From Opitutales bacterium (GTDB lineage: Bacteria > Verrucomicrobiota > Verrucomicrobiia > Opitutales > Oceanipulchritudinaceae), in contig JAFIGH010000003.1 in NCBI GenBank assembly GCA_020831525.1, positions 1 through 64,000 on the forward strand: a stretch of 64,000 bases of DNA. Direction: 5' to 3'. A program made the position numbers and the translations under genes. Position 1 is the stretch's first letter; each line of letters opens with the position of its first letter. The notes under the pieces were generated by a model. It was not told the origin of the DNA and ran no database searches. It saw only the letters and a list, made by a program, of their open reading frames with translations. Below are positions 48,221-62,302 of the stretch, one piece after another.

Positions 48221-48625
48221 TCAGGCCGGGCGCGTTAGAAGTCGCACCTTCAACTGGCTGTGGCGGGCAATACCGGCATAATCGGTGTCGAAGGTGATCA
48301 GTTCGGCGTCATGGTGGATGGCGGTGGCAGCAATGATGAGATCGATGGATCCGGCATTGAAGCCTTCTTGGCGGCAGGTCTGTCCGAGCCGGGTGGCGTC
48401 GCGCCAGAGACAGACGGGTGTGGGAAGCAAAGGCAGAGTGGCAAACTGGGCTTCGATCTTCGGGCGTTCATCCGGGGTTGCATGGCGCAGAACCTCGAAG
48501 GCAACCGGTTCGCAGAGGCAGGCGTCGGGGTCGAGGATACACGGATGGATCATGGCCTTGAGCGCAGGTGGCGATTTGGCGCGCGTGAAGTCGACCCAAA
48601 GGCTGGATTCGATCAATCGCGCCAT
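48221..48625 (-). CDS. vapC: PIN-domain toxin (VapC family)
   Basis: A 134-aa PIN protein. The N-terminal RLIESSLWVDF carries Glu where DTN-type members have Asp, a known subfamily trait; ACLCEPVAFEVLRHA and SIDLIIAATAIHHDAELITF supply the other acidic positions. Likely an RNase toxin. It overlaps the antitoxin by 13 bp and lies next to the helicase start. Confidence 0.85.
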   Translation of the reverse strand: MARLIESSLWVDFTRAKSPPALKAMIHPCILDPDACLCEPVAFEVLRHATPDERPKIEAQFATLPLLPTPVCLWRDATRLGQTCRQEGFNAGSIDLIIAATAIHHDAELITFDTDYAGIARHSQLKVRLLTRPA

Positions 48626-48855
48626 AGCTCTGCGATGTTTTGAGACGCGGCACGTTCTTCAGCTTTGGCTGCTTCGAAGGTTCTCAAATCCGCCGACCAC
48701 TCGCCGCTGAGGAACTTCCGGGAAATCTCCGCCCGGCGCCGGTACCTCAACGCATCGTCGAGGACCTGTCGGATGGCCGGACCCTTTTTCCGGATCCCGG
48801 TCATTTGGCAAATGTCGTGCACGTCGGATTCAGGAAGTTCTACAGTGATTTTCAT
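48613..48855 (-). CDS. vapB: VapB-like RHH/Arc antitoxin
   Basis: An 80-aa protein, start MKITVELPESDVHDIC, with a conserved tail AIRQVLDDALRYRRRAEISRKFL (type II VapB with toxin-binding C-terminus). It precedes and overlaps the VapC gene. Confidence 0.8.
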   Translation of the reverse strand: MKITVELPESDVHDICQMTGIRKKGPAIRQVLDDALRYRRRAEISRKFLSGEWSADLRTFEAAKAEERAASQNIAELWRD

Positions 48856-48988
48856 GATCTTCACGGTAGGGAAATCGGATTCCAGAGCAACCGTTTCCGG
48901 ATTCTATTGTCCGGGGGCGCCATTCGCTTTCGTTCCGGAATTCCAAGGGCAGCGTCAATCGGCGGACAGCGGATGCGACCAACGCAGA

Positions 48989-49243
48989 TTACGGATGGTC
49001 GCCGAAAGCCGCGCGGTCTTCCGCCGCGAGGAGTTCGTTGGTCTTGTCAAGGTCGACACCCGCAACCGGACCGTCACCGCGGAACGTGATCAGTTCAAAC
49101 GGTTCCACGCTGCCTTGCTCTCGGGATTCCAGCGCCTTACGCCCGGCATCCGCCAGAAACGCACTGAAACTCTTTCCTTCGGGGCGCGCCTGGGCACGAA
49201 GGCGTTCGCCCAGTTGGTCATCGAGTAATATTGTTGTACGCAT
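48989..49243 (-). CDS. orphan CopG/RHH-type antitoxin
   Basis: An 84-aa protein starting MRTTILLDDQLGERLRAQAR. The N-terminal ribbon-helix-helix and the C-terminal acidic tail (PVAGVDLDKTNELLAAEDR) fit antitoxins that pair with PIN toxins. No toxin gene follows on this strand before the VapBC operon, so it is probably a lone survivor of a deleted pair. Confidence 0.6.
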   Translation of the reverse strand: MRTTILLDDQLGERLRAQARPEGKSFSAFLADAGRKALESREQGSVEPFELITFRGDGPVAGVDLDKTNELLAAEDRAAFGDHP

Positions 49244-49671
49244 GATGCATAAAGTATTACCGATCACTGTTGCGTTTCAATCCATGTCACCGGCGGGCCG
49301 TCATGCATTCAGCGGGCGGAACACCGGTTTATGATGCACAATAAATATTATGTCTAATTTGTGCGGCGGGGCGGGACCCGGTTGCATCGACACTGACACT
49401 GGACAAAAAGATTTTGGAAAAGCCGGAAAAGACCGGAAGACCCAAAAAAAGCCCGAAAACCAAGCACTTAGGAAAGATAGGCCTCCCCTGTTCGGGAGAA
49501 AAGATTTTGGACGGGATTCAGTGATTTGGAAAAAAAGCCGGAAACTTGTCCGGCTATTGCATGCCCTCCGCAACCCGCATGCAAAGGACGTTCACGGGTG
49601 ATGCATTCCGCCCGGAGACTCGGAATTCCAAAATCTTTTTGTCCAAGGGAGCATGTAGCATGTAGCGTGAT
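49244..49671. other. left end of the Mu-like element and its flank
   Basis: No gene is supported. The stretch holds the left terminus (49394) and three MuA-type binding-site repeats (49400-49418, 49497-49512, 49627-49645). Confidence 0.6.
49394..49418 (+). repeat. left terminal inverted repeat and first transposase site
   Basis: TG, 5 bases, then GGACAAAAAGATTTTGGA. The 19-bp TGGACAAAAAGATTTTGGA recurs as a perfect inverted copy at 49627-49645, and AAAAGATTTTGGAC at 49499-49512. Confidence 0.7.
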
Positions 49672-49863
49672 TCAGGCTACCGGAGGGAAGCCGTTTTCGT
49701 CATCGGGGCCACCGCGCTCCCTCGCTTCAGAGAGCAGCCGCTCTATCCTCTTGAGGTGTTGGGCGCATCGCTGGGTGAAGTGCGCACAAAGAACGGCGGA
49801 GAGCACGACGAGCGCCCCGCCGACGAGTAGAACCAACGCGACCGGATTTATTGAGTGCTCCAT
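49672..49863 (-). CDS. small membrane protein of the Mu-like element
   Basis: A 63-aa protein with one hydrophobic helix (PVALVLLVGGALVVLSAVLC) after a short polar start, then a charged helix (HFTQRCAQHLKRIERLLSEA). It lies between the left end and the repressor on the same strand. Function is unknown. Confidence 0.5.
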   Translation of the reverse strand: MEHSINPVALVLLVGGALVVLSAVLCAHFTQRCAQHLKRIERLLSEARERGGPDDENGFPPVA

Positions 49864-49898
49864 CTGCTTCGGTGATAATCGAGGATATTGATGCTCGT

Positions 49899-50597
49899 TT
49901 ACGGATGGCCATCCTTCTTCCGGTCCCCGTGAGCTGAGTCGTCGGGGATCTTGCAGCCGAACCAGATTCCGAGATTTTCAGTAAAGGCGTTGAGGTATTC
50001 GCCGTCCCGGCTGATGAGGTTCCGCTCGATCAGGACAACGATATACCCCATCCAGTGACTCAGGTTCATAAACGGGGAATCCGGCTGAAACGGGTCTGCC
50101 TTGCCCGACTGAATGACTGCTTCCTGAAGATCCCCGACAAAGGCATCCCCTTCACCGGCCCGGTGATGCTTGAGGTATCCGCGCGTCTGGTGAAGCAGAT
50201 TGCCCAATCGCTCGCTGTGGTCTTCGAGATCTCGGCATAAGCGGTTGAACCGGCGATTGAAGAGGTCGAAGTACCGGGCCGGGCTGTAACGCAGGTCTGT
50301 GATCGCAGGGCCGAAGAGGTCAAACTCAGGATTAAGGTAATTCTCGATCCCGCGGGGGTAACCCAGCTTCATCGGCTCAAAGGCCGTGAGATAGAAGGGG
50401 TTCAGGTTCAATTTCTCGGAGATAACGAGGCCGGTGGAGACCTTCATTGCCACGTCGCCGCGTTCGTACGTCCCAAGGCGGCCTTCATTGAAGTTCGTCA
50501 TCCTGGAAACCTCCGGGCGCGAATACCCGAGACTTTCGCGGGCTTGCGCCAAGCGCTTCCCGATCAGCCTGTCCGAGGGGGCTTCATTCTCACTCAT
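49899..50597 (-). CDS. CI-like HTH repressor of the element
   Basis: A 232-aa protein starting at ATG 50597. Residues ~15-70 form a Cro/CI-type helix-turn-helix (LIGKRLAQARESLGYSRPEV, SRMTNFNEGRLGTYERGD); the rest is an unassigned helical region. Divergent from the early operon, the usual place of a lysogeny or transposition repressor. The control region is the 50598-50708 interval. Confidence 0.65.
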   Translation of the reverse strand: MSENEAPSDRLIGKRLAQARESLGYSRPEVSRMTNFNEGRLGTYERGDVAMKVSTGLVISEKLNLNPFYLTAFEPMKLGYPRGIENYLNPEFDLFGPAITDLRYSPARYFDLFNRRFNRLCRDLEDHSERLGNLLHQTRGYLKHHRAGEGDAFVGDLQEAVIQSGKADPFQPDSPFMNLSHWMGYIVVLIERNLISRDGEYLNAFTENLGIWFGCKIPDDSAHGDRKKDGHP

Positions 50598-50708
50598 CCC
50601 GCCCAACAAAGAACAATCCCCGGCCCGACGCCATAATTTATTGCAATAATCGACTTGACTAAATCTCCACGATACCTTCATCTGTCATCAATTATGGAGG
50701 CCGCACCA

Positions 50709-50939
50709 ATGATTCCTCTCCCGGAAACGCCCAGCAAGCGCGTTCGGGTACTGATGATCATTCACGGCCCGGCAAAGTTCACAGAACTCGCAAAGCGCCT
50801 CGGATGCGCGCCCGTAACACTCCGGGGTGTGGTGTACGGAACGTCATGGTCACCGGGGGTCGCGCGCAAACTGGAACTGTACTACGGGATTCCGATCTTC
50901 CCAGAATTACACGCTAAAAAAGACAAAAATGAAAATTGA
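50709..50939 (+). CDS. small Ner-like DNA-binding protein
   Basis: A 76-aa protein. ATG 50709 is preferred because GGAGG (50696-50700) sits 8 bases upstream. AKFTELAKRLGCAPVTLRGV and ARKLELYYGIPIFPEL resemble a Ner/HTH fold. First gene of the plus-strand operon, and likely an early regulator. Confidence 0.5.
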   Translation: MIPLPETPSKRVRVLMIIHGPAKFTELAKRLGCAPVTLRGVVYGTSWSPGVARKLELYYGIPIFPELHAKKDKNEN

Positions 50940-51429
50940 TCCCTCCCGCGACGCAGGCGAAGTCCTCTCCGAGATCCTTGACCAAGCCAAGGCCCAGCTC
51001 GAGGACCTGCGCCGTCGTACCGAAGCTGATGAGTTGGCCCCCGAAGAAGCCCGTAAGGCATTCAACCGCTCAAAGGTGATCTACGATCTGGCCCAATACC
51101 TCGCCCGGCAATACACAGCCATGGTGCGCGAGCACATGGCTGATCGGCCGACCCCGCCGGGGACCCCCGGTAGCTTGAAGGACCTGCCCCCGGACCTGAT
51201 CGCAACGATACACGACTTGGCCGTCAACGAGCGTCTGGATGTTAAAGCCATCCAAGCCCGCTTGGAAGCGCCCGAGGCGGAAGGCGGCTGCGGGCGTGGA
51301 TTTATTCCGGAGGAGGAGATATCCGCCGCGGTCGTCGGTTACGCGTCCGACCAAGTGCGGTTAGCCGCCTCTCTCCCTGCCCTCTTTCAGCTATTTGACG
51401 ACCTGTTGAGCAATGAGCATGAGCGGTAG
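50929..51429 (+). CDS. hypothetical phage protein
   Basis: A 166-aa protein starting MKIDPSRDAGEVLSEILDQA, helical and charged, with a coiled-coil-like N-terminal half (QLEDLRRRTEADELAPEEAR). Overlaps both neighbours. By position and length it may be a small Mu-like structural or regulatory protein; family not recognised. Confidence 0.5.
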   Translation: MKIDPSRDAGEVLSEILDQAKAQLEDLRRRTEADELAPEEARKAFNRSKVIYDLAQYLARQYTAMVREHMADRPTPPGTPGSLKDLPPDLIATIHDLAVNERLDVKAIQARLEAPEAEGGCGRGFIPEEEISAAVVGYASDQVRLAASLPALFQLFDDLLSNEHER

Positions 51430-53599
51430 AGACAAGCTGGAGATTCTCATAGAGTTCGCCGAGGATCTGCGCGGGCTCAAGGAGGCGCGCCAGCAAACCA
51501 ATGCGCTCACGCGCGAGGTCGACACCCTCGGCAGCACGGCGCGCATCGCCTTCGGAACCTTCGTCGGCAACATCGGCGCGCGCGCCGCGACCGCCCTTAC
51601 CAATCAGGTCACCCGGCTCATCGGCGCGGGGGTGCGCTACCGCGCCAACCTCGAACAGCAGACCGTTGCCTTCTCGACCTTACTCGGCAGCATGGACGCC
51701 GCCGCGGACCGCATGGCCGAGTTGGAGCGATTCGCCGCCACCACGCCCTTCCGCAAAGAGGAGATCATCGAGGCCTCGCGCCTCCTCGAAATCTTCACCG
51801 GCGGCGCGCTGTCATCCGGCGATGCCCTGCGCATGATTGGCGATGCGGCGGCGTCAACGGGGCAGCGGCTGCCGGAGCTGGCGAACTGGGTGGGCCGCAT
51901 CTACGCCATGCTCGAGGGCGGGGAGCCCATCGGCCAGGCAACCCGGAGGCTTATGGAGATGGGGGTCATCACGCCCCAGGTGGCGGAGGAACTCCGCAAC
52001 GTATCGACCTCCGCCCAGGGCATGCGCGTCCTCGAGCGCGAGTTCGGGCGCTTCGCCGGCGGCATGGAGCGGCAGAGCCAGACGCTGACAGGGCGGCTGT
52101 CGACGCTCCAAGACATCCTTGATCAGCTTTCCGGGGCGTTCCTTGCGGGCATTGTCGACGAAGGGGCCGGTGGGTTGGAGCGCCTCGTCGATATCCTCAG
52201 TGACGAAAGCGCGATGGAGAACGCCCGCGAGTGGGGTGAGATCATCCACGACTTGGCCAGCGGCTTAAAGCCCTTTGCGGCGGCGGCAGCGGCGGCCGGG
52301 CGGGGCTGGGGTTTCCTTGCCGCCGCGATGCAGGACGTCGTGGACGGGGACCTCAACTGGGTGGAGGACGACACCAGAGTGGGCCGCATACTCGACCGGC
52401 GCATACAGCGCGCCGGCCGGCGCGAAGAGCCCGTCGACGGCGGCGACATCGGCGAAATCACAGGCACCGGCCGCCCCGCGCCAAGCGAAGCCGAGGGTGC
52501 GAAGCGCGTGGCGACTGCCGAGCGAATCCAGGAACTCAACCGGCAGATGGCGCGGACGCAGGGCCAGCGCGCCCGAGTCGAGAGCGACGCCCTGCGCACG
52601 CAGGCCGACAAGCGCGATGAGCTGGCCAACATCCTCGAGCACGAAGCCGCCCTCGTTCTTGAAATGCGCGATGAGTACCAGCGGCTGGGCAATGCCGCCG
52701 CCGAGGCCGCCGACGCGGCGGTCAACCTCCGCACTCAGGAAGGGGATGCGGAGGCCGCAAAGCTCATGGAGGAAGCCGTCCGCATGTGGGAACGGGCCAC
52801 TGCCGCCAGCACCGAGTATTTCCAGATCCAAAACGAGATCGCGGCGAGCGGCTTCTGGGCCGAAATGCAGGCCGAACTCGTCGACTACGTCGACGCCGTC
52901 GGCACAGCCGGCGAGCAGATCGCGCGAGCATTCACCGACATCGCCGACCGCGGGGTGAGTTCGCTCTCCGACGGCATAACGGATCTCATCATCGGCACGG
53001 GCAACCTGACGGACGCCATGCGCAGCTTCGGGCAAATCGCGATCCGCACACTCGTTGAACTGGGTGTGCAAATGCTCCTCAACGCCGCCCTGCAAAGCAT
53101 GATCCGCAAGCAACAGACGGCGGAGGATGTGTCGGCGACGACGACGCGCACAGCCCCCAAGGTGGCGGAGGCGGTGGCGACGGGGATCTCCACCTTCGGC
53201 GCGGCGCTGATCTTCGGCGCGCTGGCGCTGGGGATGGTGGCCATGGCGGGGGGCTTCCGGCGCGGGGGCTTCACCGGGCCGGGCGCTCCCGACGAGGTGG
53301 CGGGCGTTGTGCACCGGGGCGAGTATGTCATCCCGCAGGAGGCGGTGCGCGCCATCGGCCTGCCCGCCCTCGAGGAGATGCACCGCACCGGGCGCATCCC
53401 CGAAGCCCCGGAGGGCGGCGGCGCAGGCCGCGCGGCCTCAGCCTCGCCCCGCCCGGCCTCGGGGGGCGGTGCCTCTGATCTTCTTCGCGGGGAGCGTACC
53501 CAGATTATCGAGCGGGGGCGGCGCAACCGCTCCTACCGCGACGACACCAGCCTCAAGTACCGCGTCCTTGAGATCATGCGCAACCGGGAGGACTCCTAA
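51413..53599 (+). CDS. phage tape-measure protein
   Basis: A 728-aa protein. The N-terminal DKLEILIEFAEDLRGLKEAR and FSTLLGSMDAAADRMAELER, ATTPFRKEEIIEASRLLEIF are the tape-measure N-terminal domain (TIGR02675 type). A long helical middle contains alanine-rich and coiled-coil stretches, and the C-terminal FRRGGFTGPGAPDEVAGVVH, RGEYVIPQEAV motif is typical of tail length-determining proteins. The start overlaps the preceding gene. A tail protein with no visible sheath or tube gene here is unusual. Confidence 0.82.
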   Translation: MSMSGRDKLEILIEFAEDLRGLKEARQQTNALTREVDTLGSTARIAFGTFVGNIGARAATALTNQVTRLIGAGVRYRANLEQQTVAFSTLLGSMDAAADRMAELERFAATTPFRKEEIIEASRLLEIFTGGALSSGDALRMIGDAAASTGQRLPELANWVGRIYAMLEGGEPIGQATRRLMEMGVITPQVAEELRNVSTSAQGMRVLEREFGRFAGGMERQSQTLTGRLSTLQDILDQLSGAFLAGIVDEGAGGLERLVDILSDESAMENAREWGEIIHDLASGLKPFAAAAAAAGRGWGFLAAAMQDVVDGDLNWVEDDTRVGRILDRRIQRAGRREEPVDGGDIGEITGTGRPAPSEAEGAKRVATAERIQELNRQMARTQGQRARVESDALRTQADKRDELANILEHEAALVLEMRDEYQRLGNAAAEAADAAVNLRTQEGDAEAAKLMEEAVRMWERATAASTEYFQIQNEIAASGFWAEMQAELVDYVDAVGTAGEQIARAFTDIADRGVSSLSDGITDLIIGTGNLTDAMRSFGQIAIRTLVELGVQMLLNAALQSMIRKQQTAEDVSATTTRTAPKVAEAVATGISTFGAALIFGALALGMVAMAGGFRRGGFTGPGAPDEVAGVVHRGEYVIPQEAVRAIGLPALEEMHRTGRIPEAPEGGGAGRAASASPRPASGGGASDLLRGERTQIIERGRRNRSYRDDTSLKYRVLEIMRNREDS

Positions 53600-55626
53600 T
53601 GAGCCGCGCGACTGCACTCGCCCGCTTCGCCGGGCACTTCGTTCAAACGGAATTTAGCCCGCTCCGGGGTCTCGATATGGCTCGGGTGGTTCACCTCTTG
53701 GAAGCCGGTGAACGCGGGGATTACTGCGATCTGCAGTGGCTTTACCGCACCGTTGAAAAGCGCGACGCCACGCTCCGCGCCTGCCGCCGGAAGATCGCCG
53801 CCTCGATTCTTCGCATGGATCCCTCGGTGCGCGTGATGAAGCATGCCGCCGCCGATCCCCGCGCGCACCGGCAGGCGGCAACGCTCCGGGCGGCGTATGA
53901 GCGAATCCAGAACCTTTCCGCCGCCGTGCGGTTCCTCGCCGAAGCCGACTTCCGCGGCTTCGCCCATCTCGAAAAGGTGTATGGCAAAGACCGCCTCGCG
54001 CCGGGAGTGTGGGCGATCGACCGCCTCGAGCCCGTGCCGCAGTGGCATTTCCGCCGCTCGGGAATATATGGTCCCTGGGAGTTCGTTTCCGATACGTCTT
54101 CAGCGGAGGGTGAAGAGATTGACCCGGCCCGCTTCATTACCCGCGAGGTAGACGACCCCGTCGACGAAATCGCCCTCATCGCCTTTGTGCGCAAGAGCCT
54201 CTCGCAGAAGGACTGGGACGCGTTCGTGGAAGGCTACGGGCTGCCGTGGCTGTTTTTCATCATGCCGCCCGGCATCAACCCCGGCACGCCCGAGTATTAC
54301 GACTGGATGGCAGTGGCCCGCGGGGTGATGAGCGACGCGCGGGGCGCGCTGCCCAGCGGCACGCAGGTGGCGTCCTCCCGCGTAGACGCGCGAAACCACC
54401 CCTTCGAAGAGCACTTGAATCGGCAGGATAACGAGATCGTGCTCGCCGCTACCTCGAGCCTGCTCACAATGCTCACGCAGAGCGGCAGCGGCACCCTTGC
54501 GGGGAACGCTCATCAAAAAACCTTCGACAGTATCGCCGCCCGCATCGCGGCTCAGATCTCGGAAATTTTCCAAGCCCAGTTCGACTTGCCTCTGATTCAA
54601 GCCCTCCATCCCGGCGAGCCCGTCCTCGCGTATTGGGAAATCGGGCACGCCTCGGAAAAGCAGGTCGCCGCGCGCCTCGGACATGCGGCGCAGATCCGGA
54701 AGCTGGGCTATAAGCCGGACGCCGCCCAATTTTCTGAGTTAACTGGGTATCGGCTCGAGGACATCCCCGGCCCGGCCCCGGCGCGAGAGCCCGCCGCCGC
54801 CGCCGCCCCGGAAGGCACGGAATCGATTGACCCCGGCCTGACACTCAACGGGGCGCAGGTTCGCGCCATGGCCAAGATCGTGCAGGACGTTTCCGCGGGG
54901 ACGATTCCCCGCGCAACCGGCGTCGAAATCTTAGTTGCCGCCTTTCCTGTGAGCCGCGAGAAGGCAGAGGAGATCATGGGCGAAGTGGGCCGCGGCTTCG
55001 ACCCGGCGGACGCCTCCGCCGCGCCCGATGAGAGCGAGACCGACGAAGAGCGCCTCCCCAACCGCGCCAACCGCACCGGCCCGGCGGTCTCCCTCGCCGA
55101 CCAACTGCCGCCGGCCTCGCCGGGCGGGGGGTGGCTTGGCAAGGCCCGCAGCTTCCTCAACCGCGCAATCGGCAGAGAGACCGGCTTCGAATTACCCGCA
55201 GACGGCTTCTTGCACGTCGTGCCCATAGGCGAGTTCCCCGTTGAGGGCTCCGAAGGCCTCGTGCAGGTTCTCGACCCGCGCGGCCTGGGCGCGATGGCAA
55301 TTCGATTCATCCGGCAAGGCGGCGGAAGCCTGGTCGACTATGACGGCGCATCGGGCGATCTGGACCGCGAGACCCGCGCCGCGGGATGGGCGGAAGAGCT
55401 GGACCTCCGGCCCGACGGGCTCTGGGCGCGCGTCCGGTGGAGCGACCAAGGCCTCGACGACGTGACCGGCGGGACGTACCGTTGGCTGGCCCCAGTCTTC
55501 AGCCTCGAGGATGCCGAAGACCTTGGCGAAGGCCGCATCCGTCCCCGTGTTCTGGAGGGATTTTCACTCACCAACAAGCCGGCGCTGCGGACGCAGCCTG
55601 TATCCAAGATTTTACAAGACGAATAA
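53599..55626 (+). CDS. portal (DUF935/gp29) fused to Mu I-type protease
   Basis: A 675-aa fusion. Residues ~1-400 are Mu gp29-like portal (DUF935: MARVVHLLEAGERGDYCDLQ, WLYRTVEKRDATLRACRRK, DWDAFVEGYGLPWLFF, ASEKQVAARLGHAAQ). About 530-665 is Mu gpI-type prohead protease/scaffold (GFLHVVPIGEFPVEGSEG, GWAEELDLRPDGLWARVRWS, GTYRWLAPVFSLED, LEGFSLTNKPALRT). In Mu these are separate genes. Starts immediately after the tape measure. It suggests head assembly, although no major capsid gene follows. Confidence 0.78.
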   Translation: MSRATALARFAGHFVQTEFSPLRGLDMARVVHLLEAGERGDYCDLQWLYRTVEKRDATLRACRRKIAASILRMDPSVRVMKHAAADPRAHRQAATLRAAYERIQNLSAAVRFLAEADFRGFAHLEKVYGKDRLAPGVWAIDRLEPVPQWHFRRSGIYGPWEFVSDTSSAEGEEIDPARFITREVDDPVDEIALIAFVRKSLSQKDWDAFVEGYGLPWLFFIMPPGINPGTPEYYDWMAVARGVMSDARGALPSGTQVASSRVDARNHPFEEHLNRQDNEIVLAATSSLLTMLTQSGSGTLAGNAHQKTFDSIAARIAAQISEIFQAQFDLPLIQALHPGEPVLAYWEIGHASEKQVAARLGHAAQIRKLGYKPDAAQFSELTGYRLEDIPGPAPAREPAAAAAPEGTESIDPGLTLNGAQVRAMAKIVQDVSAGTIPRATGVEILVAAFPVSREKAEEIMGEVGRGFDPADASAAPDESETDEERLPNRANRTGPAVSLADQLPPASPGGGWLGKARSFLNRAIGRETGFELPADGFLHVVPIGEFPVEGSEGLVQVLDPRGLGAMAIRFIRQGGGSLVDYDGASGDLDRETRAAGWAEELDLRPDGLWARVRWSDQGLDDVTGGTYRWLAPVFSLEDAEDLGEGRIRPRVLEGFSLTNKPALRTQPVSKILQDE

Positions 55627-55662
55627 AGCACTCACCAGAGAACCACTCACAAAGAAGACATC

Positions 55663-56355
55663 ATGGCACCGAAAAAATCGAACCAAAAACCTTCGAGCGA
55701 TGCGGCATTGATGGCCGTCGCTCTCGACAAAAAGGCGGCCTCGCTTGCCCAGGCCGCGCGCCGCGTGGCGACCTGCGTTGCCGATAAGGACGCGCTCTCC
55801 CTCGCCGTTCAGCGCGTTGAAACCTACGGCTCTTACCGGAGCGGGGAAGATATCGACACCCTTATCCACGCCCGCGCCCGGCTTGAGATCCTCCCCCGCA
55901 ACCTCGACGAAGCGCGCCGCGCCCTCCGCGAGGTTCAGGAAGAGGCGAAGCGCGATGTTGCTGAAGCGCGCGTGTTCGTGCTCAAAGCCGCCGACGGGTT
56001 GTTCTCCGAGAGCGCGGAACGTATCCTGCACAGCACTATCTCACTGGAGAAGCTTCGTGAGGACCCGCAGCGCAACGAAGATCAGGCGGGCTGGGCGGCG
56101 GAAAAAGACCCGCGCTGGAAAGCCTTCGAGAAATGCGAGCATGCGCTGTCGCTCCGCAACATCGAGACGGGCGCGGCCCTCTTTGCCGCCGTGAAGGCCG
56201 CCGCGAGGATGCTCGACCTTCTGGCTTTGCCGGGCTCAAAACCCGACTATGCGGATTTCGTCAAGGCCATCGAAACGGGCGAGGCCGAAGGCCGGAAGCT
56301 ATGGGACGAGGCCCATGCGAAAGCCGACCTCGAACCCGCCACAGCGGAGGCGTGA
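55663..56355 (+). CDS. hypothetical protein, coiled-coil rich
   Basis: A 230-aa, mainly helical protein (RNLDEARRALREVQEEAKRD). No family recognised. Its place after the portal-protease is where Mu has the major head protein, but the composition is coiled-coil, more like a scaffold or accessory protein. Its stop overlaps the next gene's possible GTG start. Confidence 0.45.
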   Translation: MAPKKSNQKPSSDAALMAVALDKKAASLAQAARRVATCVADKDALSLAVQRVETYGSYRSGEDIDTLIHARARLEILPRNLDEARRALREVQEEAKRDVAEARVFVLKAADGLFSESAERILHSTISLEKLREDPQRNEDQAGWAAEKDPRWKAFEKCEHALSLRNIETGAALFAAVKAAARMLDLLALPGSKPDYADFVKAIETGEAEGRKLWDEAHAKADLEPATAEA

Positions 56356-56401
56356 AACCGCCCCGCCGAAAATTCGCCGCAGAAAGCGTTTTGAGGGCCG
56401 A

Positions 56402-56870
56402 GATGGGACAACCTCCCGCGAATCACCCGAAAGCCGGTTTGCAACGCCCTTCCGGCGTTTTGCAAAGGGGTTCCGCCTCCGACTCCAACCAGCCCGCGCC
56501 GCACGGCGGGGCTACCGGGACATTTGAGGCCGAATTCCCCAGCTTACTACCGCGCGGCGGCCCCGGCCCGTACACCATCCGCGAGATCGCCCGCCACCTT
56601 CAGGTCAGCAACCAGAATATCATGAACCTCGTTGAAGAAGGCGAACTCGTTGTCTTGGATGTGGGCACCCGCCGCGGCCGCGCGTGGAACCGCATCCCGC
56701 GCGAGAGCTATTGCCGTTGGATCGCCGCCCGCCTGGGCCACGCCCCCACCCGCTCCGAGGTGATCAACCTGAGCACCGACAGCCTCAAAGGCCTTCTCCG
56801 CGACGTTGCGGCGCGCCTGGAGATACGCGGCGTCGATCCCGTGCAAGCCATGAAAGGCAAGGCATGCTGA
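56402..56870 (+). CDS. helix-turn-helix protein
   Basis: A 155-aa protein (ATG 56402 with GAGGG upstream; a GTG at 56352 would extend it). YTIREIARHLQVSNQNIMNL, EEGELVVLDVGTRRGRAWNR is an excisionase/MerR-type winged HTH. Possible late-gene or transposition regulator. Its stop overlaps the next start. Confidence 0.5.
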
Positions 56871-57388
56871 GCCCAGCCAAGCACCAAGTTTACACCGGCC
56901 GCGCACGCGCCTTGCACCGCTACTGCAAGTCGATTGACCGCGCCGTCGACCGGGGCGAGACAATCAAAAGCTCCGCCTGTGCCGCCGCGCACCGCGCCCG
57001 GCGGTCGGAAGTACCGAGGGCCGGCGCCAAGTCGATCTACAGGCACTACACCCGCTGGAAGGCGCAAGGCCGCCCCGGCTGGCAGGCGTTCATGCCCGGC
57101 TACGTGCCCGGACGCCGCGCCGTACGCTCCGCCGCCTTCAAAGCCTGCGTGTATTCCCTCGCCGAACACGCGCAGAGCATGCGGGCCGTGCACGACACCC
57201 TCGTCCTCCGCTGGCGCGCCGGCCGCCGCATCCCCGGCCTCGGCAAAGCGGCGTCGGCAGGCGAGCCCTTCCCCCTCAGCTACCGCACCTACCTCCGGTT
57301 CTTCACGCTGCCGGAGCGCCGGACCCTTCAGAAGTATTTCACCGCTCGCCGGGCGTTCCTGCGCCTCGCGGGCATGCATACCAAATAA
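56864..57388 (+). CDS. hypothetical basic protein
   Basis: A 174-aa, strongly basic protein (Arg-rich; KSIYRHYTRWKAQGRPGWQA). No family recognised. The N-terminal and middle segments look helical and may bind nucleic acid. Overlaps the HTH gene by 7 bp. Confidence 0.4.
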   Translation: MLSPAKHQVYTGRARALHRYCKSIDRAVDRGETIKSSACAAAHRARRSEVPRAGAKSIYRHYTRWKAQGRPGWQAFMPGYVPGRRAVRSAAFKACVYSLAEHAQSMRAVHDTLVLRWRAGRRIPGLGKAASAGEPFPLSYRTYLRFFTLPERRTLQKYFTARRAFLRLAGMHTK

Positions 57389-57410
57389 ACCCATAGAAAA
57401 GGAATACACC

Positions 57411-58202
57411 ATGACCGCAGTACCAGAAAACCCGTCCGATCAACCCGCCGCACCAGCCGCGGAACCGGGCGAACTCATCACCTTCGAGCAATACGGCGAC
57501 CGCGTCTTCCGCGCGGACATCAAAGAGAAAGTCGTCTGCCTGAGCTACAACGCAGAGGTCGCCGCCAAGCTCATTGATCGGCTCCAGCATATCGTCGAGA
57601 CGGAACCCCTCCATCACGCGCCCGACACCCTCCGGGAATTCGTTTCCGCCTGCGACCCTGCGGTCCCTCCCCTGCACCCGTTGCTTGCCGCGCGCCTCGA
57701 GGCCTTGGTCGAGCTGTTGCATTACGCCCGCGGGCGCCTCCGCGCCGTGGACTGGGCCGGATGGGACCCCGTCGCCCCCGACGCCGACGACGAAGACACC
57801 GGCTGCCTCGTTCAACTCGAGTGGGAGGACCCGCGGCATACCCCGTACAAGTTCTTCCTCGAGCGCCTCTGCACCCCGGACCAACCCCTCGGAGTCTCGC
57901 ACGGCATCGCCGTCATGATCGCCTTCGAGCATGATCCCGCCTTCGCCGATTCGGAAATCGTAGCCTGGATGCTCCCCCGCCGCCAAACGCTCGAGCGCGT
58001 GCGCGGGTACCGCGACCAAGCCGCCCTTGCCCTCAAACACGCGCGGGAAACCATTGCGTGGATACACACAAACACCCCGCACCTCCGCCTCTTCGACACC
58101 GCCGTCGTCTTGCACGGCGTCGAGGACACCCGCCCCACCATAACCCCGGACCCCGCCCTCGGCACCGGGGCCGCCGCCCGCCCGTTCCGGGCCATCGGTT
58201 GA
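57411..58202 (+). CDS. hypothetical protein
   Basis: A 263-aa protein starting MTAVPENPSDQPAAPAAEPG, with a Pro/Ala-rich N-terminus and then a mixed alpha/beta region (DEDTGCLVQLEWEDPRHTPY). No family recognised. It lies directly upstream of MuA. Confidence 0.4.
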   Translation: MTAVPENPSDQPAAPAAEPGELITFEQYGDRVFRADIKEKVVCLSYNAEVAAKLIDRLQHIVETEPLHHAPDTLREFVSACDPAVPPLHPLLAARLEALVELLHYARGRLRAVDWAGWDPVAPDADDEDTGCLVQLEWEDPRHTPYKFFLERLCTPDQPLGVSHGIAVMIAFEHDPAFADSEIVAWMLPRRQTLERVRGYRDQAALALKHARETIAWIHTNTPHLRLFDTAVVLHGVEDTRPTITPDPALGTGAAARPFRAIG

Positions 58203-58222
58203 ATTTCAGAAGTGCTCGTTTC

Positions 58223-60622
58223 ATGAAGGATAAGCCCGCAGCGTTCAGAGTCGCAGTCATCGCCCATGCCGTTGGCATGAACCGGCGTGCTGTGCTCCGG
58301 GCGCTGCGGGCCGTTCCTCCGGCGGGCATTGTGGAGGCGCGCGGCAACGAAGCGGCTGTTTATACCGTCGACAGCCTTCCCGCCGGTATCCTCCGCAAAT
58401 TGGACGAGCGCGCCGGCCCCCTCGGACTCGACCGCGAAGGCGTCTTGAAAAACGCCGAGGCCCGCAAACCGTGGCAGCCTTCGGTGCGTTGGTCCCAGGC
58501 CAATCCGACCGCCCAGGCCAAGGCGCGTAAGATGCGCGAGGCCTTCCGCGCGGTTTTCGAACGGCACAACGCGCGCAACCCGCTTCCCTACGGCGAACTC
58601 CGCGCCCGCGGCCTCGAAGACTACGAGCGCGCCTTCGGCACCCGCATCACCGCCCGCCATTGGGATCGCCTGTATGGGCGTTTCATCGCCCGCGCCGGCG
58701 CCCTCGAAGACTTCGACCGCCTTGAACTCTACCTCGACGAGCGGATTGCGGCGAACACCCCGCCGCCGCCTCGACAGTTCGACACCGCCCCCATCGACAT
58801 GGCGGCCGATCTCATCGACGACCCCGCCCGGCCCGCGCCACGCGAAAAGGGCCACCTCTGGGCCACCCTCTTCGATACTTTCCAAGTCCTCTGCAAGTCC
58901 GGTGAAAAGCCCTCGCGGGCAAAGAGACTCATCCTTGCCCATGCGCTGCACCGCGTGCCTGGGCTCTCGAAAAACCAAGTCGCCGCCGCCGAAGCCTTCC
59001 GGGCGAAGATCAAAGCATTTGAGGAAGGCAAGGATCCGTTCAAGGATCGCCGGGCCGGAAGATCGGGAGCCAAACCCCGCATCGAAGTCGACGAAGACCT
59101 CTTGCTCGCCCGCATGCTCCGCAACCGCGGCCGCGCCCTCAGTTCATGGCAAGAGCTGTGGGACGAAGGGAAACTCCCCGGCGCGGCCTACGAATTCGGG
59201 TCGCGGGAAAACGTGCCCAACCGCATCGAAGCAAGCGTGCGCGCCGAATACAACCGCCTCAGCCCCCACGCCATCGGCCCGAAATACGCCAAGCTGCACG
59301 GGGCCAAGACCGTCCGCACATGGGAAGGCATACCCGCCGGGGCTGAATCCCAGTCGGATGACATGACAGGAAACCACTACTTTTGGTTCCCCACCCCCGC
59401 GGGGCGCTACGAATACGACGATATGCGGTTCGACGTTCTACGCGGGCAATTTCTCCCGTGGATTGACACCCGGACTGGCTATATCCGCAGCTTCATACTG
59501 CTTGCGCGGGAGTCTTATAACCAACTGGACATCGCCCGCAGTTGGAGAAATGATCATGATAAGAACGGCGGCCTTCCACCGCGGATGTGTTTGGAGGGCG
59601 GGACTTGGGAAAAGTCGCTCCTCATCGCCGGGCGGAACGACGAATTGGGCATGAAGGAACGGATCTACGGGCTCCGCGACCTTGGCATTGAAGTCGTCCA
59701 TGTCCGCGATCCTTCCGCGAAGATCGTCGAGCGGGTGTTCGGCGATCTGCAAAATTACATGGACAAGGTACGCGGCTACGCCGGCCGCGACGAACGCCGG
59801 GATTGTCCGGAGTCCACAAAGAAGCATCTCGCCACCGTAAAGGCCCGCAAGTGTCATCCTGCCGAGTTGTTGCTGAGCTTCGAGGAAATGGTCGCGGCCT
59901 ACGAGGACGCTTGCAATCGCTACAACGACACACCTTCGAACGGGAAGCGTCTCAAGGGCCTTTCGCCTCGCGAAGCGTTCGCCCGTTGGCAAGATCCCGA
60001 GTCGCCGCCGATTTACCTCGAGGGCAGCTTTCGCTGGCCTTTGGCCACTCACTGGCGGGTTGTGAAAATAGGGCCGCAAGGCCTCAGCATTAACATCGGC
60101 AAGCAAACCTATGTCTACAGAAGCCCCGCCACCGGCGCGCGGCGTGGAGAGCGCGTTATGGCTCGCTTTGAAATCGACAATCCGTCATTCATCACCTTCA
60201 GCGATTTGGACTGCAATAACCATCAGTTCGCGCTGCAGGCAACAGAAGTCCCCGCTATTGGAGCGGGCCGCGAGACACTTGCCCAGGCATACCGCGAAAT
60301 CGCCGCACACGAAGCCCCCTCCCGCACCCGCTTCGGGAATCTCAAGAAGGTGTACCCGGAAGAGTTTGCACAAACGCGCCGTCGTATCGTCTCGGACCGC
60401 AAATCCTACGAAAATGCCGTCGCCATTGAGACATGCCGCCGGGAAGCGAAGGAGGCGGGCAAGAAAGAAAAGCGGAAGGCCGACCGCGCGAACCGGCTGC
60501 GCCGCGAACTCCACGCGCCCGCAAACCTCGATCCGCGGCGGATCGACTCCCAAACCGAAGGTCTCGCCGATGTTGCGGCCTTCTTCAAGCAAACCGACAC
60601 CGAACCCGAGCCGCGCAAATGA
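58223..60622 (+). CDS. Mu-type DDE transposase A
   Basis: A 799-aa transposase. An N-terminal HTH region (VAVIAHAVGMNRRAVLRAL) binds the ends; the catalytic core shows QSDDMTGNHYFWF (D379/D380), CLEGGTWEKS (E458 where Mu has an Asp) and AKIVERVFGDLQ (E503). Order and spacing fit the Mu-like integrase fold, but the second acidic residue is Glu, which also occurs in some Mu-like phages. A basic C-terminal domain presumably contacts MuB. The stop overlaps MuB by ATGA. Confidence 0.85.
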   Translation: MKDKPAAFRVAVIAHAVGMNRRAVLRALRAVPPAGIVEARGNEAAVYTVDSLPAGILRKLDERAGPLGLDREGVLKNAEARKPWQPSVRWSQANPTAQAKARKMREAFRAVFERHNARNPLPYGELRARGLEDYERAFGTRITARHWDRLYGRFIARAGALEDFDRLELYLDERIAANTPPPPRQFDTAPIDMAADLIDDPARPAPREKGHLWATLFDTFQVLCKSGEKPSRAKRLILAHALHRVPGLSKNQVAAAEAFRAKIKAFEEGKDPFKDRRAGRSGAKPRIEVDEDLLLARMLRNRGRALSSWQELWDEGKLPGAAYEFGSRENVPNRIEASVRAEYNRLSPHAIGPKYAKLHGAKTVRTWEGIPAGAESQSDDMTGNHYFWFPTPAGRYEYDDMRFDVLRGQFLPWIDTRTGYIRSFILLARESYNQLDIARSWRNDHDKNGGLPPRMCLEGGTWEKSLLIAGRNDELGMKERIYGLRDLGIEVVHVRDPSAKIVERVFGDLQNYMDKVRGYAGRDERRDCPESTKKHLATVKARKCHPAELLLSFEEMVAAYEDACNRYNDTPSNGKRLKGLSPREAFARWQDPESPPIYLEGSFRWPLATHWRVVKIGPQGLSINIGKQTYVYRSPATGARRGERVMARFEIDNPSFITFSDLDCNNHQFALQATEVPAIGAGRETLAQAYREIAAHEAPSRTRFGNLKKVYPEEFAQTRRRIVSDRKSYENAVAIETCRREAKEAGKKEKRKADRANRLRRELHAPANLDPRRIDSQTEGLADVAAFFKQTDTEPEPRK

Positions 60623-62187
60623 AACCTTTCCTGCCGCAAGAATTCGCCACCGTCCAGCCCGTCGCCGCCCAGCGCGCCGCAAGGGCCGCCGCCCTGGCGG
60701 AGAGTCCCGCGCGCCGCGCCCTGATCCTCGCCGTCGGCGCGCTCTCCCGCCAGCCCGGCGCGCTTCAGGAGTTTTGCGCCTTCGCCCTCAACCGGAGGCT
60801 TGAGGGCTTTGTCTACAATGACCCGTCCGGACCGGGCAACGAAGTGCTGCGCGGCAACGCCCTTGAAGACGCTTTCTCCACCCTTCGCGACCGTTCCGCG
60901 AAGGAGATCACCTTCAGCGCCGGGGATCTCGCCCGCGCTCTGCACGCGGCAGACACGGCGGACCTCCTGTCCGTTTTCGGCAGCGGCAAGGATGCCGCAG
61001 ACTCGGAAGCCGCAGACCCGGATGCCGAAGTCGAAGAAGAGATCCCCGCCCGCGTCACACGCGCCGACGTACTGGACGCGCACCGCCAGTGCGCGACGCG
61101 ACTGCCCGCACGGCTCGCCGAGATATTCGACGACCCGCGGGACACCCGCGCCGCTCATGATCCGGACAAGCCGCTCGCCCCGGCATGGTTCCCCGCGCTG
61201 GATGAAGCCCTCGTCGACGCGCTCCGCCACTGGCACGCCCATCTCCTCGGAAAAGGCGTCGAGACCTCCGCAGGCCGCGAAGTCCGGAACGCCTGCGAAT
61301 ACGCGGCCCGCCGGGGCGGATTCGTCTTCATCCACGGTGAGGCGAGGCTTGGCAAGACAACCGCCGCTCGCCTCTGGGTCGACGGCAACCCGGACCGCGC
61401 CCGCTACATCACCCTTGAGGCGGACGCCAACGACCGCTACTTCTATTACACCATCGCGCGGGAAATCGGCTGCGACCTCAGCCCCGACGCCACTTCGCCC
61501 GTCGCCAAGCGGGCAATTGCGGAAGTCCTCGGCAACCGCGATCTCGTGCTTGTCATCGACGAGGCACACCATCTTTTCACCGGCTCGCGCAAGAACGTTC
61601 CGAAGCGCCTGGAGTGGCTCCGCACCGCCCTCGTCAACAAAAATGTGCCCGTCGTGCTTATCACGACCCCGCAGTTCATGCACACCCTGCGGATCGTTGA
61701 GCAGGAATCGCAGTTCAACCTTGAGCAGTTCAGAGGCCGCATAACGAAAGTCTTCAACCTTGGGGTCGACCTGCCCAAAGACGACTTTCAGGCCGTCGCG
61801 AGACATCTCTTTCCGGGCGCTTCCGGATCCGCTCTCCGGGCCGCCGCGGGTTACGCCCTGTCAAGCCGCGTCTACCTGCATGCCCTCCGCGTCTTGAAAG
61901 ACGAAGTGGCCCTCTTGTCACCCGACACGGAGAACCCTTCTGACGACTGCATGCGCGCGGCAATCCGTGCCTGCATCGAAAACGATTCCACCCTTTACGG
62001 GCTCTTCAGCCCGGCCCAGAGCCCCAAGGCGAAGGCGAAAGCCCAGCCCGCCGCGCGCCTCCCCGAAGCGCCCCCCGACTTTTCCATTCCGGAGCCAAGG
62101 AACACCCCGTGCAGAGTGCCTGAAAGCCCTGTGCACGACCGGTTCAAACGCTCCGAAACCCCCGCTTTTTCAGAACTCACGACCTGA
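60619..62187 (+). CDS. MuB-like AAA+ ATPase (transposition target activator)
   Basis: A 522-aa protein. Walker A HGEARLGKTTA (240-249) and Walker B LVLVIDEAHHLF (D314, E315). The N-terminal ~200 residues are an unassigned extension, partly acidic. MuB-type ATPases deliver the transposase to target DNA and confer target immunity. Coupled to MuA by ATGA overlap; last gene of the element. Confidence 0.8.
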   Translation: MKPFLPQEFATVQPVAAQRAARAAALAESPARRALILAVGALSRQPGALQEFCAFALNRRLEGFVYNDPSGPGNEVLRGNALEDAFSTLRDRSAKEITFSAGDLARALHAADTADLLSVFGSGKDAADSEAADPDAEVEEEIPARVTRADVLDAHRQCATRLPARLAEIFDDPRDTRAAHDPDKPLAPAWFPALDEALVDALRHWHAHLLGKGVETSAGREVRNACEYAARRGGFVFIHGEARLGKTTAARLWVDGNPDRARYITLEADANDRYFYYTIAREIGCDLSPDATSPVAKRAIAEVLGNRDLVLVIDEAHHLFTGSRKNVPKRLEWLRTALVNKNVPVVLITTPQFMHTLRIVEQESQFNLEQFRGRITKVFNLGVDLPKDDFQAVARHLFPGASGSALRAAAGYALSSRVYLHALRVLKDEVALLSPDTENPSDDCMRAAIRACIENDSTLYGLFSPAQSPKAKAKAQPAARLPEAPPDFSIPEPRNTPCRVPESPVHDRFKRSETPAFSELTT

Positions 62188-62281
62188 TCGGCGGGCCAGT
62201 CAAATTCATTCAAAACCCCGGTTCCACTCCGGAGGTTAATTCGTGTACCGATGAATCGGACATCGGACACGTTTAAACCCA

Positions 62282-62302
62282 GATCTTTTTTGTCCGGTTA
62301 CA
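62282..62302 (-). repeat. right terminal inverted repeat of the Mu-like element
   Basis: On the minus strand it reads TGTAACCGGACAAAAAAGAT; matches the left end after 7 variable bases. Ends in CA on the plus strand. Confidence 0.65.

Follow-up and report, generated by a model that had tools for sequence, protein, structure and literature searches.

The window examined here is a 64,000-nucleotide stretch (contig JAFIGH010000003.1) of an Opitutales bacterium, and it contains, at positions 49394-62302, a compact 12.9-kb element in which Mu-type transposition genes are combined with a few virion genes of tailed phages. The element has matched ends of the form TG...CA, as the first-pass annotation of this DNA had proposed. 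That proposal is borne out by the match between the ends and by a 257-bp internally deleted copy, resembling a miniature inverted-repeat transposable element, on another contig of the same genome (G000:C31:16981-17237). In the short copy, about 250 bp of the left end (90% identical) is joined directly to the right terminal sequence; because it contains both terminal sequences, it confirms the boundaries independently and shows that the element ends are used. The short copy is flanked by the inverted sequences GCACCT/AGGTGC, not by a direct duplication. The core end motif has two exact sites, both in the left end, against 0.07 expected per shuffled window. The features of the element are as follows (TIR, terminal inverted repeat; HTH, helix-turn-helix; aa, amino acids).

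49394-49417, plus strand: left TIR, TGACACTGGACAAAAAGATTTTGG, also present in the 257-bp deletion copy.
49628-49644, minus strand: inner inverted copy of the end motif (exact 17-bp match), likely a second transposase site.
49899-50681, minus strand: HTH repressor, divergent from the other genes (profile searches; homologues in many other elements).
50655-50939, plus strand: Cro-like HTH protein, core gene C6 (E=8.9e-19 in the core profile).
50827-51429, plus strand: small predicted coiled-coil protein, no significant family in profile searches.
51413-53599, plus strand: tape measure protein (TMP), 728 aa, full length (phrog_24, E=2.4e-19).
53599-55626, plus strand: fusion of a Mu-type portal with the catalytic, N-terminal portion of the Mu I protease (PF06074, E=1.8e-35; PF10123, E=1.2e-14).
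55663-56355, plus strand: predicted largely helical protein, 230 aa, no family match, coding-like codon positions.
56133-56870, plus strand: HTH_17 excisionase-like DNA-binding protein, a core gene (1.4e-4; 8.2e-30 in the core profile), with its true start probably near 56460.
56864-57388, plus strand: basic core protein C3 (core profile search and structure model).
57411-58202, plus strand: 263-aa protein, no family match, coding-like codon positions.
58223-60622, plus strand: MuA-type transposase with catalytic D-E-E (D379/D380, E458, E503; 22-member alignment).
60619-62187, plus strand: MuB/TniB-type AAA+ protein, Walker A and B intact (phrog_296, E=2.4e-24).
62279-62302, minus strand: right TIR, TGTAACCGGACAAAAAAGATCTGG, read on that strand (end comparison).

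All the open reading frames (ORFs) of the element are open, none is disrupted, and every one shows the codon-position GC pattern expected of real genes in its frame. The MuA assignment is supported by the 22-member alignment, in which the catalytic residues are conserved. The TMP, whose stop overlaps the start of the portal-protease gene (ATGA), measures 728 aa versus 708 aa in the nearest phage homologue found, so we consider it full length. The protease is different, as its PF10123 match covers only positions 2-130 of 330; since the phage proteases in sister loci are 320-420 aa long, the scaffold part is missing. The earlier description of all the genes as intact thus holds for the ORFs, which are open and coding-like, but not for the protease, of which only the N-terminal part is present.

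Profile searches gave no match within the element to terminase, major capsid protein (MCP), tail-tube, or lysis families, nor to the TniQ/TnsD family, and the element has no integrase, its mobility genes being MuA and MuB only. The first reading had listed terminase, capsid, and tail genes as absent, which is right for the terminase, MCP, and tail-tube families, although the tape measure is itself a tail gene. A Mu-like phage carries a full head, tail, terminase, and lysis set in 30-40 kb, and no such set is contained in the 12.9 kb between the confirmed ends. The structure model of C3 consists of two helical DNA-binding modules, for which the top PDB matches, to the MuA Ibeta end-binding domain, were non-significant (E of 0.4 or worse); C3 is the sole candidate target selector in the element.

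A search with the portal recovered ordinary Mu-like phages across the phylum and one compact locus in another genome (L062, in G373), in which portal, MuA, and MuB follow the same compact order as in the window element. Searching with the MuA alignment brought up relatives both in public genomes, where almost every label reads Verrucomicrobiota or Kiritimatiellae, and in the whole-genome set; in total, about 21 other loci have a related transposase, all of them from draft or metagenome assemblies. MuA and MuB lie side by side in every locus with a long enough contig, and profile searches identified a core common to many loci, formed by the repressor, the Cro-like HTH protein, the HTH_17 protein, and C3. 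Neither the 50,697 phage records nor the 72,556 plasmid records contained a match to the window transposase, and viral scans with MuA alone, with the MCP of L069, and with a 264-aa protein of L076 found no relatives. In the transposase tree, the element enzymes cluster together, separate from the transposases of full-size Mu-like phages (basal support 86/80, with long branches present). Within this cluster, the window copy groups with L076 and L108 (99/99) and then with L062 and L066; the cargo differs in all of them. We had also considered the D-E-E triad, with E and not D as its second residue, as a hallmark of the family and rejected it, as full-size Mu-like phages of the same phylum share it.

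The virion genes carried by the relatives are varied. L062 carries a Mu portal (PF06074, 4e-37), L075, L068, and L108 a TMP, and L074 and L069 an MCP, that of L069 sharing 44% identity with its homologue in a Mu-like prophage. Other members carry more than one such gene: an HK97 MCP and a short TMP-like protein in L070, a phage-related tail protein and a TMP-like protein in L067 (both TMP-like assignments by inspection), an HK97-type portal with an MCP in L080, an MCP with a TMP in L107, and a TMP, distal tail protein, tail protein, and J fibre inside the ends of L109. L077 (5291-8158) codes for two adjacent, paralogous HK97-type MCPs, 46% identical, located between MuB and a tRNA-Gly. At the locus L111 (152-2314), a 720-aa TMP-like ORF with the imperfect repeat WKPGHVGSDD lies to the left of the repressor; it was clustered by BLAST and has no PHROG match, and its membership is uncertain. 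For L062, L070, L074, L107, and L109, the virion genes fall within mapped ends, and none of the elements contains a recognised terminase. The portal of the window is nearest to that of phage locus L041 (48%) and the portal of L062 to that of L043 (62%). As their nearest phages differ and the two are separated, with moderate support, in the portal tree, each seems to have been captured independently; the virion genes of the family as a whole differ between members and look independently acquired.

These data bear on two rival explanations. The first-pass annotation had suggested, as one option, a defective prophage; we considered it in the form of a Mu-like prophage shrunk by random deletion, and the presence of Mu-type MuA/MuB, portal, and protease, the last one truncated, is what such a remnant would leave. 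We consider it very improbable, because the compact layout is repeated in about 20 loci with a shared core and differing virion genes, no ORF of the window element is disrupted, the TMP resembles those of siphophages whereas the portal is Mu-type, the portal sources differ, and no full-size phage with this transposase appears among the 50,697 records. Nor were the missing phage genes found just outside the ends, or the relatives found to be random deletions of a larger prophage, two outcomes that had been listed beforehand as counting against a distinct element. Alternatively, a transposon could acquire nearby phage genes by chance, as neutral cargo with no role, in line with the great variation of cargo between close relatives and with the members that have no recognised virion gene. 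We give this explanation little credence, since about 13-14 of 20 loci have virion genes, which are intact, are coding-like in the window, and belong preferentially to the portal, MCP, TMP, and tail-tip classes, with no terminase or lysis gene recognised. The element is intact and mobile, and not a random relic.

The ends of six relatives could be mapped, all of them TG...CA: L062 (10,985 bp), L070 (12,796 bp), L074 (8,529 bp), L076 (10,179 bp), L107 (12,953 bp), and L109 (15,486 bp), with target duplications CTAAC in L076, GGGT in L074, CAGT in L107, and GAAA in L109. A plain local-alignment search for TIRs, which are short and contain indels, missed the window and several other loci; a tRNA-anchored search recovered some of these, and the ends are incomplete for L067, L068, L071, L075, L108, and L111. 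At 12 of the approximately 21 loci, a tRNA or transfer-messenger RNA (tmRNA) gene is followed, 13-16 bp downstream (mode, 14), by an element end, a fixed spacing far beyond chance by a rough binomial estimate. The targets are of the Gly, Leu, Arg, Ser, and tmRNA types, the tmRNA case (L069) hinging on the choice of the TG that ends the element. How a MuA/MuB system with no recognised TniQ inserts at a constant spacing from several different tRNA genes is a targeting puzzle.

We compared the family with four known systems. With Mu and Mu-like phages, the family shares the MuA-type transposase, MuB, the divergent repressor, the TG...CA ends, and the Mu-type portal and protease, but its elements are 8.5-15.5 kb long, have no complete head or tail set, carry the transposition genes at the right end, and, in many relatives, insert beside tRNAs. 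Tn7-like transposons have in common with it a DDE transposase with an AAA+ partner, fixed-distance insertion near conserved genes (in 12 relatives, though not at the window copy), and, in one member, defence cargo; here, however, no TnsA or TniQ/TnsD was recognised, and phage-type repressor and HTH genes accompany a virion cargo. Well-characterised phage satellites use integrases, which are tyrosine or serine enzymes in phage-inducible chromosomal island-like elements (PLEs), phage-inducible chromosomal islands (PICIs), and P4-like satellites, whereas the window element has none. Capsid-forming PICIs (cf-PICIs) are satellites that likewise bring their own head proteins, with an integrase and a fuller head-packaging set, unlike the family of the window, with its one or few virion genes and no recognised terminase. 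Putative tmp genes have been described in some cf-PICIs (PMC12987554, Extended Data Fig. 10). The closest precedent for the proposed function is the PLE of Vibrio cholerae (PLE11, PMC12987554), a helper-dependent element with no full virion set that supplies a TMP, a chaperone, and a baseplate hub of its own for chimeric tails and in which deletion of tmp cuts transduction by about 99.9%. The PLE differs in being an integrase-bearing parasite of ICP1 in Vibrio, while here we find MuA/MuB, Verrucomicrobiota, and head genes (portal, MCP) as well. We found no MuA/MuB satellite in the open-access literature.

Taking all this together, the element is probably an autonomous transposon of the MuA/MuB type with the lifestyle of a phage satellite. 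It matches the anatomy of one: self-mobility, phage-type regulation, an incomplete virion set, and genes that, by homology, might remodel the virions of a helper. The other two options of the first-pass annotation, a satellite or a new transposon keeping parts of a virion, both gain support from the recurrence of the layout in the transposase family, the confirmed ends, and the differing virion genes. We lean, if only a little, towards a wider proposal, a new class of satellites in Verrucomicrobiota driven by a Mu/Tn7-type transposase, often targeted to tRNAs, and swapping in whichever assembly-nucleating protein suits varied tailed-phage helpers.

Several observations weigh against a satellite lifestyle, beginning with the lack of the scaffold part in the protease. 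The window copy has no 5-bp target duplication (flanks GACAC versus ACTTC) and no tRNA gene at its end; the ends of L062 and L066 likewise have no tRNA gene. Four relatives (L066, L071, L073, and L076) have no recognised virion gene, and a sister element (L078, 1008-9267) carries complete Gabija (GajA/GajB) and IetAS systems in its cargo zone. The satellite function, with helper use and packaging of the element, is our inference.

A Mu-like helper in the same genome had been suggested as a check. In that genome, a single-protein query with the portal matched only the element itself; family searches found a terminase and portal on contig C146 and a portal with a contractile-tail cluster on contig C122, which we regard as candidate helper loci. 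The presence of other phage loci in the genome favours the satellite reading; that both look partial, and that their portals are distant from that of the element, counts against it. The C146 locus (G000:C146:2806-5943, L121) is an isolated pair of terminase and Mu-type portal genes amid apparently non-phage genes. At the C122 locus (G000:C122:14434-28680, L122/L123), Mu F-like and Mu-type portal genes lie on one strand and a contractile-tail cluster (tube, TMP of 832 aa, gpD, gp25, gpJ, gpI, and fibre) on the opposite one, gene names other than portal being by inspection; no terminase or MCP was seen on this contig.

Two congeneric genomes are without the transposase; in the congeners, the RNase HII neighbourhood is present but free of the element, and the junction is too diverged to read. 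Directly to the left of the element (48221-49267), we noted small PIN-like toxin and antitoxin-like genes by inspection.

The Gabija and IetAS cargo leads to the main rival of the satellite reading, an anti-phage role in which the carried portal, MCP, or TMP homologues would poison the head or tail assembly of a related phage, with the host protected and the element spreading by transposition alone. Most of the carried proteins are lattice-formers or assembly nucleators, and satellites are known to encode tail-assembly inhibitors (PMC11364771, PMC12987554). Still, the window TMP is full length and not truncated, and the matching sets of head and tail genes or entire tail-tip modules of L107 and L109 exceed the needs of a poison, so that we consider a defence transposon rather unlikely.

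If the element is a satellite, infection by a helper tailed phage, or its induction, would relieve the divergent repressor, and MuA/MuB would then move or amplify the element. Its nucleating proteins (TMP and portal/protease in the window, and MCP, portal, or tail-tip proteins in relatives) would replace or mix with those of the helper, and the resulting chimeric virions would carry the element, as described for the PLE-encoded TMP (PMC12987554). Between infections, it would stay integrated.

If this is true, a transposon, too, has served as the chassis on which satellites arose. The exchange of portal, capsid, tape-measure, and tail-tip genes within the family would then offer a natural series for learning which parts of the virion a parasite needs to possess in order to redirect its helper, a question raised by the 2026 work on the chimeric tails of PLE.
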